Source: Oscillospiraceae bacterium MB08-C2-2 (GTDB lineage Bacteria; Bacillota; Clostridia; Oscillospirales; Ruminococcaceae). Taken from it: 64,000 bases of DNA. The DNA lies in the NCBI GenBank assembly GCA_035621215.1, contig CP141729.1, positions 124,001 through 188,000 of the forward strand, read 5' to 3'. The notes under the pieces were generated by a model, which was not told the origin of the DNA, ran no database searches, and was given only the letters and a program-made list of their open reading frames with translations. The position numbers and the translations under genes are program-made. Shown here one piece after another: positions 10,619 through 63,823 of the stretch; positions within the stretch are counted from its first letter, which is position 1; each line of letters opens with the position of its first letter.

Positions 10619-10714
10619 TGTCAGAGTAGGAAACACGCGTTAAGTGCCGATGGATGGGAGGTCGCCATCGGACGAAGGGTCTTGGCCCGCGGTGTGTTTT
10701 CGCATCCGCTGCCA
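10619..10714 (+). promoter_or_regulatory. THF (tetrahydrofolate) riboswitch
   Basis: The stretch carries the conserved blocks of the folT-type THF riboswitch: ACGCGTTAAGTG, a GCCGATGG/CCATCGG stem enclosing GATGGGAGGTCG, ACGAAGGG, CCCGCGGTG and CGCATCCGC. The P1 stem pairs TGTCAG (10619-10624) with CTGCCA (10709-10714), with one mismatch. CCACA (10712-10716) can alternatively pair with TGTGG (10734-10738), a possible switching helix. It precedes folT by about 50 bases and should lower folT expression when reduced folate is plentiful. Confidence 0.9.
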
Positions 10715-13008: not shown

Positions 13009-13120
13009 AAAAGAAAAACAAAAGAAGCACACCATATTATATGTGTTTACCGGGCCAAAACAAAAGCCCTCCCCAGCCCAAAACAGCCGGAAAGCAAAAA
13101 CAAAAAATATGGTGAAAATA

Positions 13121-13190
13121 CTCCAATAGTCAAACAATTACGGTTGTTTGGTAGAAACTTCGGGTCCAATTCCCCAAATTATATCGGATC
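13121..13190 (-). promoter_or_regulatory. Guanine riboswitch aptamer
   Basis: The minus strand reads the purine-aptamer blocks in order: ATATAAT, P2 with loop GAATTGG, GAAGTTTCTACC (J2/3), P3 with loop ACCGTAAT, then TTTGACTATTGG. The GAC before TATT marks the specificity base as C74, which is the guanine/hypoxanthine type. P1 forms between CCGAT and ATTGG. The L2 and L3 loops differ from the common form in a way that may be compensatory. Confidence 0.88.
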
Positions 13191-13284
13191 TATTCACATT
13201 ACATTCATATTTTACACTGTTTTCTCCCACCGGTCAAGGGGAGAATGCCTTTTATGATATATATTTTTTCTGAAAAAAGAAAAA

Positions 13285-26012: not shown

Positions 26013-26177
26013 AAGCACTCCTCCTATGAATAAATGGCAAAAATCATGGAAACAACTCTGAGTTATCACTATAGTATCACAAAATAGCCAAAGTATAAAC
26101 TGATTCATTGACAAAATTTACACCGGTAATATACATTATCTTTGGAAGGTGCTATACTGCCTATGGGTTTTATATCA

Positions 26178-26331
26178 TGCCTGCTGAATAATTTGAAAAT
26201 GCAACAATAACAATACGTTGACAGCGTCTTTAAATTGTTTGGGTGCATGTTTTTGCCGTATTCGGCCAAAAACCTTGCACAAAGGATTTGTGGCGTGTGT
26301 CCGCAAATCCTTTCAGGCAGTCAATCAATAT
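26178..26331. repeat. Dispersed structured repeat, copy 1 (conserved core)
   Basis: About 154 bases that recur, in the same orientation and clearly homologous, at 63485-63639. The core opens with TGCCTGCTGAA and closes with TTTCAGGCAG, able to pair end to end (TGCCTG/CAGGCA). Inside are a GTGCA...TGCAC stem-loop with an inner CCG-TATT-CGG, and a long stem AAAGGATTTGTGG / CCGCAAATCCTTT. It sits in the gap between divergent nadE and the PHP gene. No open frame of note is shared by the copies, so it looks like a structured RNA or a non-coding mobile repeat. Confidence 0.85.
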
Positions 26332-26437
26332 CAAAATCCTATGGAATTTTGATACAGCGGGCTTTTGCCCACTGGCATGCCTTGGGCGTGGGATTGACTA
26401 TGCAGCAAGGTTAACCAGTTATACCACGAGGTATAAC
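26319..26437. repeat. Multi-hairpin module attached to repeat copy 1
   Basis: AGTCAATC (26319-26326) can pair with GATTGACT (26393-26400), enclosing hairpins TCAAAATCC/GAATTTTGA-type and AGCGGGC/GCCCACT-type. A further perfect hairpin GTTATACC-ACGA-GGTATAAC follows at 26418-26437, ending 27 bases before the ribosome site of the PHP gene. Confidence 0.6.
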
Positions 26438-63410: not shown

Positions 63411-63484
63411 TACCATTTCCTCCAATACATTCATATTGCTGCTTAAAGGCGCTGACAACCGCCTTTTTCACTTTCACTATATAA

Positions 63485-63639
63485 TGCCTGCTGAACAATT
63501 CAAAAATGCAACAATAGCAATACTTTGACAGCGTTTTTGGATTGTTTAGGTGCAAGGTTTTTTGCCGAATACGGCAGAAAGCCTTGCACAAAGGATTTGC
63601 GGCGTGTGTCCGCAAATCCTTTCAGGCAGCCAATCAATG
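63485..63639. repeat. Dispersed structured repeat, copy 2 (conserved core)
   Basis: Homologue of 26178-26331 in the same orientation. It keeps TGCCTGCTGAA, ATGCAACAATA, TTGACAGCGT, the GTGCAAGG/CCTTGCAC stem with inner TGCCG-AATA-CGGCA, the AAAGGATTTGCGG/CCGCAAATCCTTT stem and the closing TTTCAGGCAG. Base changes in the stems mostly keep pairing. It lies upstream of the glnA-like gene, on the far side of that gene's promoter region. Confidence 0.85.
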
Positions 63640-63823
63640 TATCTGAAGCAGCAAAACAGGCCTGTTTTGCTGTCAACCAGAGTGAAAATTGCTCTGGTTG
63701 CAAATGCGCTTCGCAAAGCGCATTTGTTCAGTGGATATTATATAGTCAATCAACCTGAAAGCCATAAAAGGCGTTCAGGTGGAAGCAGGAGCCTGCCGGC
63801 ACACTCTGCGGCATGCGATTGAC
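63640..63823. repeat. Multi-hairpin module attached to repeat copy 2
   Basis: Perfect hairpins in a row: GCAAAACAG/CTGTTTTGC, ACCAGAG/CTCTGGT, CAAATGCGCTT/AAGCGCATTTG (ending near 63727), and ACCTGAA-GCC/GGC-TTCAGGT (63753-63780). GTCAATC (about 63745-63751) can pair with GATTGAC (about 63817-63823), enclosing the last ones, the same plan as beside copy 1. The remaining 63824-64000 is AT-rich with no gene seen. Confidence 0.65.

Follow-up and report, generated by a model that had tools for sequence, protein, structure and literature searches.

A double-cloverleaf MITE family in an Oscillospiraceae genome and its probable mobilisation by an IS5-family transposase

The conspicuous repeat in the 64-kb window analysed here (the whole stretch of DNA at G000:C1:124001-188000, from a host genome of 3.29 Mb in two contigs) is real but is not built as an invariant core followed by a variable tail, so that the initial annotation of this DNA is partly confirmed. 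We consider it highly probable that the repeat belongs to a MITE family mobilised in trans by an IS5-family transposase related to NF033578 and using the same ends, with palindromes that are kept at the DNA level. This explanation builds on the observed ends, target duplications, copy numbers, covariation and insertion sequences (IS) with the same ends, and from these we infer the mobilisation in trans, the descent of one hairpin (P3) and the reason why the shape persists. As expected for MITEs, the elements are short, multi-copy and non-coding, carry terminal inverted repeats, produce a target-site duplication and have ends in common with a transposase-carrying element; among the options initially offered, that of a non-autonomous mobile element is the one borne out by the terminal repeats, the duplications and the transposase-bearing relatives.

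Pairwise comparison located the core at 26177-26329 again at 63478-63638 with 86-91% identity, in agreement with the recurrence at 63.5 kb of a core of about 154 bases that had been reported, and both copies fold far more strongly than shuffled sequence (z -8.2 for copy 1 and -10.3 for copy 2). The pairing TGCCTG/CAGGCA described for its ends is present, and so are the inner stems, although the folds contain three inner hairpins rather than two. The proposed combination of a fixed core with an exchangeable hairpin array, however, arose from cutting the element at the wrong place, as the core is the left half of a mobile element of ~255 bp. A complete element of this family (family A) contains no gene, carries terminal inverted repeats ATGYCYRCTGAACAA, starting with ATGYCYRCTGAACAATTC and finishing with TTGTTCAGTGGACAT, and lies between 6-7-bp TA..TA duplications. 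The full-length elements inspected share an anatomy of two domains with three hairpins each, every domain being closed by one terminal repeat paired with its internal inverted copy. Domain 1 runs from the left terminal repeat through hairpins P2, P3 and P4 to an internal CAGGCA, the pairing partner of TGCCTG at the terminus, and a short linker (YCAATCA) leads into domain 2, in which AATGTATCTGAA, P5, P6 and P7 are followed by the right terminal repeat; the latter is paired with AATGT..CTGAA.

Copy 2 (63484-63738) is a complete element, flanked by unstranded TATATA duplications at 63478-63483 and 63739-63744. On the plus strand it comprises domain 1 at 63484-63628 (left terminal repeat, P2, P3 at 63550-63589, P4 and the closing arm CAGGCA at 63623-63628), the interdomain linker GCCAATC at 63629-63635 and domain 2 at 63636-63738 (internal arm AATGTATCTGAA, P5, P6, P7 and right terminal repeat TTGTTCAGTGGATAT), whose three hairpins are closed by TCTGAA/TTCA and which ends at the terminal inverted repeat at 63738. 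The hairpin set closed by (A)GTCAATC/GATTGAC(T), taken initially for the tail of both copies, does adjoin both of them as AGTCAATC/GATTGAC, but the core of copy 2 continues into its own second domain, and the GTCAATC..GATTGAC unit found there is a separate neighbour past the 6-bp target duplication, a type C hairpin element running from AGTCAATC to GATTGAC at 63744-63823 on the plus strand.

Copy 1 holds only domain 1 of family A (26177-26319, plus strand), which is the left half of the element and comprises the left terminal repeat ATGCCTGCTGAATAA (26177-26191), P2 (about 26184-26242), P3, with the form GTGCATG..CCTTGCAC (26243-26280), P4 (26281-26313) and the closing arm CAGGCA (26314-26319). 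At AGTCAATCAAT it passes, on the same strand, into a different family (family B), represented by a first domain at 26319-26399 (AGTCAATC, three hairpins and GATTGACT) and, at 26400-26423, by the linker remnant ATGCAGCAAG and a collapsed second domain (GGTTAACC, 26409-26416) whose hairpins are missing. Family B is itself a double cloverleaf (z -12.7 against shuffles) with a sequence unrelated to that of family A, and its layout is AGTCAATC, three hairpins, GATTGACT, a linker, GGTTA, three hairpins and TAACC. The B part of copy 1 is 93% identical to a B element at 3.04 Mb (G000:C1:3044935-3045135), and elsewhere in the genome family B has its own left end. Judged from these sequences, copy 1 is a recombinant in which the second half of family A has been replaced at AGTCAATCAAT by the unrelated family B. 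Only few copies of family B occur in this genome, for example the one at 3.04 Mb (L011:1496-1672) and L013.

Searches with both window copies recovered ten full-length copies in the chromosome and about ten partial ones, so further copies do exist in the genome. Full-length copies of the family measure 241-257 bp and lack coding capacity, and those of the window's genome are about 87-91% identical to copy 2. When the terminal repeat TAATGYCYRCTGAACAA was searched allowing up to two mismatches, the genome gave 44 matches against 1 in the control, most of them oriented towards one another like the ends of an element and frequently separated by about 260 bp; Clostridiales bacterium isolate AS21ysBPME_66 (JAAYOP01, G305) gave 221 against 0. 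Exact target duplications are likewise frequent. Among 55 elements of G541, G570, G506 and relatives, 42 carry one of 6 or 7 bp (25 and 17, respectively), compared with 3.2 expected (1.6 at each length) when left and right flanks were re-paired, and none has a duplication of 8 or 9 bp. By the same calculation, the window's genome and JAAYOP01 together have an exact duplication in 25 of 64 elements (4.5 expected), which is of 6 bp in 21 (4.0 expected) and of 7 bp in 4 (0.4 expected). The duplicated target begins and ends with TA almost without exception, as TANNTA or TANNNTA. Copies in the window's genome are intergenic and occur in all three gene arrangements with no clear orientation preference, an indicative result only, as the survey relied on simple ORF calls and counted some overlapping candidate pairs twice. 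The same genome contains two elements of ~255 bp (L092:1503-1756 and L068:5045-5301) with the same terminal repeats, quite different interiors and perfect duplications (TAGCTA and TAATTA, respectively), which can be regarded as further subfamilies.

The window element found no match in ten other genomes of its genus, and related elements extend across a number of genera and families within the order. Within the window's GTDB family, the terminal-repeat ends are abundant in G031, G197 and G128, with few or none in most genomes. Among 394 genomes of the order, 22 contain a hairpin of about 40 nt corresponding to P3, GTGCAAGG..CCTTGCAC, with up to 20 copies each and control matches near zero; some single matches are probably unrelated hairpins or IS leaders. 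The surroundings of P3 are full elements with the same double-cloverleaf plan and unrelated hairpins, and this plan is present in the window's own genome, in G031, G197 and G235, and in genomes of f14 and f20. JAAYOP01 copies have hairpins in common with the window element and frequently lack entire ones: some are without P2 and P3 and some without other hairpins. An apparent 1.8-kb JAAYOP01 element with ordinary genes between its ends was in fact two separate copies. Element length is almost uniform in G541 (254-255 bp) and G570 (243 bp), and the G570 copies have probably spread recently, because they are on average 95% identical. We also observed mini-palindromes of ~50 bp that comprise nothing but a terminal repeat, a single hairpin and the repeat in inverted form, at L326 (G541:C8:58295-58342), G541:C12:124464-124511 and L267:1067-1117 (G031), the 44-bp one of G541 having the near-matching flanks TATGTA/TACATA; these are possibly the smallest mobile form. 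Plasmid and phage collections searched in distant mode with the window element and an f14 element gave no match, and viral contigs searched for the terminal repeat contained none.

Several genomes of the order harbour IS5-family-like insertion sequences (NCBIfam NF033578) with the same ends and the same 6-bp duplication, which carry in the transposase leader a hairpin similar to that of the MITE. In G541:C29, behind one copy of the terminal repeat come a -10-like box, a P3-like hairpin and the reading frame of a transposase, which scores 327.3 bits with the NF033578 model 'IS5 family transposase' (cut-off 275) and 55.1 with Pfam PF05598 DUF772 (cut-off 23.1); the gene is truncated, and the ISNCY model comes second, under its cut-off. 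Duplications of 6-7 bp are listed for the ISDol1 group of ISNCY. A pairing of ends 24 kb apart in G541:C29 was rejected, since the flanking duplications differ; one end adjoins an unrelated transposase insertion and the other is the IS end. Both ends were found in G580, as a 1,532-bp IS with three mismatches at its left end and TATATA duplications, and in G073, as an IS of ~1,521 bp with TAATTA duplications and a right end that matches without its last bases, and in both the transposase gene is decayed by frameshifts or stops. In G197, an IS with an internal deletion directly adjoins, by its right end TTGTTCAGTAGACAT, a double-cloverleaf MITE (G197:C124, L388:1-1370); this may be an intermediate in the way IS and MITE ends come together. 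Further IS ends with 0-1 mismatch and a leader hairpin occur in G337 and G565. The hairpin search also gave at least three identical IS-type leader hairpins in G579 (C15, C191 and C247; L282), of which at least one is preceded by a terminal repeat and a -10-like box and lies at a contig end, which suggests that assembly breaks in this genome conceal an autonomous IS with recent activity. No intact full-length transposase between two perfect terminal repeats was found, the gene being truncated in G541 and decayed or deleted in G580, G073 and G197.

These results make an IS of the NF033578 type the likely source and mobiliser of the MITEs. The transposase family has no match at 1e-5 in the window's genome or in JAAYOP01, and therefore the local mobiliser has probably been lost from both. 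In the IS, the hairpin is preceded by the -10-like box and followed by the transposase start, which makes the transposase leader the probable ancestor of P3 in the MITE. In the IS leader this hairpin mostly has non-complementary inner arms (AAAA..AAAA), in the MITEs complementary ones (TTTTT..AAAAA), so the palindrome would have been perfected afterwards, in the MITEs.

Stem pairing was analysed in 31 elements of the GTDB family f14 with a mean identity of 79%. Standard pairs fill 98.0% of the pair cells, both sides have changed in 29 of 89 pairs, and there are 230 double-change cells compared with 84.7 in shuffles, while slid structures paired at only 35-45%. The ten copies of the window's genome are 96.8% paired, with both-side changes in 10 pairs against 4.1 in shuffles. 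In both sets, stems are thus preserved much more frequently than they are disrupted. If RNA were maintained for its fold, G.U would be tolerated on one strand, and the corresponding excess over A.C was absent from f14 (G.T 21 and A.C 24 of 2,447 cells, counted in pairs found on folding either strand) and, with a strand-neutral stem finder, from JAAYOP01 (9 of each). As the largest set shows both mismatches at the same low level, the constraint on the stems looks to be at the DNA rather than the RNA level, although the window's genome, with the same stem finder, leans to G.T (27 against 14, p 0.06, among related and non-independent copies), which leaves some room for a constraint acting on RNA in this host. 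Imperfect palindromes are known to mutate by template switching between their arms (for example PMC7202029, PMC8604942), and this process could yield such covariation without selection.

A structured non-coding RNA that functions as a cis-regulator or sRNA and is dispersed by chance, which the initial annotation had left as an option, would explain the very stable folds, the strong covariation, the many intergenic copies and the slight G.T excess just mentioned. We nevertheless regard it as very unlikely, given the equal mismatch counts in f14 and JAAYOP01, the mixed orientation relative to co-directional genes and the wholesale replacement of hairpin sequences between genera, and given that target duplications and IS ends account for the dispersion. 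Nor does any Rfam family match the element at the gathering score, below which there are only sub-threshold matches; over the window, that score retrieved only a tetrahydrofolate riboswitch (10620-10713, plus strand, 80.7 bits) and a purine riboswitch (13107-13206, minus strand, 68.2 bits), both elsewhere, and E-values up to 5 added nothing credible.

An active exchange of hairpin modules around a fixed core, another of the options first considered, fits the junction of family A domain 1 with family B at AGTCAATCAAT and the many JAAYOP01 copies without whole hairpins, and to this extent, loss of whole units and a two-family chimera, the idea stands. The remainder of it has an extremely low probability, since the supposed core itself varies (P2 and P3, or other hairpins, are absent from JAAYOP01 copies), the expanded families of G541 and G570 are nearly uniform at 254-255 and 243 bp, and ordinary recombination and palindrome deletion explain one chimera and the hairpin losses. 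We give hardly any credence to a tyrosine-recombinase element whose ends would be inverted arms around a 6-7-bp overlap, like Xer or Tn916-like sites: in a circular form, an AT-rich spacer of 6-7 bp would indeed lie between the arms TTCAGYAGACAT and ATGYSTRCTGAA, and the duplication length alternates between 6 and 7, but copies within a single genome carry different duplications, most of them with exactly matching sides, as expected from a staggered cut and fill-in, and the gene inside the same ends is a DUF772/NF033578 transposase and not an integrase.

Under the preferred explanation, mobilisation in trans by an IS transposase, the enzyme of an NF033578-related IS (IS5 family, DUF772) would act on the terminal repeats that it shares with the MITE and would cut TA-rich targets, leaving the 6-7-bp TANNTA or TANNNTA duplication. 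Within these repeats lie the two three-hairpin cloverleaves, each closed by a terminal repeat and its internal inverted copy, with P3 putatively derived from the 5'-leader hairpin of the transposase gene. Selection on folded DNA, template-switch correction of imperfect palindromes, or both, would keep the palindromes at the DNA level. In the window's genome the mobiliser would be gone and the full copies would be old and decaying through whole-hairpin loss and recombination, copy 1, with family B in place of its second half, being one such recombinant. A bolder and rather doubtful proposal is that transposition has the double cloverleaf as such for its substrate, which the transposase or a host factor would recognise as a folded single strand or cruciform with internally paired terminal repeats; if so, selection would keep the shape of the DNA and not its sequence across a bacterial order and in at least two unrelated end-families, and a shape needed for movement would represent a transposon anatomy selected for DNA structure.

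A conspicuous intergenic repeat can thus be explained as one mobile family with an identified type of mobiliser. More generally, DNA can show covariation as strong as that of structured RNA, and covariation alone is no evidence for a functional RNA; the G.T versus A.C count helps to tell DNA palindromes from RNA folds. In practical terms, uniform elements of ~250 bp with intact ends are candidate small delivery or tagging tools for Firmicutes that are hard to manipulate.

In kind this is an ordinary MITE family; what is unusual is the two-cloverleaf anatomy, which outlives sequence similarity across many related Firmicutes. A literature search for MITEs with such an anatomy, with most subscription papers outside its scope, found no description. 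Among the closest known systems, the NF033578 (transpos_IS5_1) IS has the same terminal repeat ATGTCTRCTGAAYAA, the same type of 6-bp duplication and, upstream of the transposase, a hairpin of the GTGCAAGG..CTTGCAC type like P3, but it is ~1.53 kb long with a transposase gene, whereas the MITE is gene-free and its palindromes are perfected and extended. The REP/BIME repeats of IS200-like (Y1) transposases are likewise palindromic, interspersed and mosaic, although REPs measure 20-40 bp (PMC3733652) and the elements described here are ~250 bp long with terminal inverted repeats and target duplications. Pneumococcal BOX elements are also modular structured repeats, in which boxB modules may be absent or multiplied, and BOX-related ends with exchanged modules occur in S. 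suis (PMC3049150); compared by their published description, they consist of boxA, boxB and boxC units, unlike the two cloverleaf domains, different ends and 6-7-bp TA..TA duplication found here. Prokaryotic MITEs such as Nezha, Correia, RUP and QMITE, in a review whose text does not use the words 'cloverleaf' or 'hairpin' (PMC10969869), are similarly short and non-coding, with terminal inverted repeats, target duplications, stable stem-loops and ends in common with an IS; the present family differs from them in its two tandem closed three-hairpin domains, with terminal repeats paired to internal copies, and in an anatomy that is kept across genera while the sequences change.
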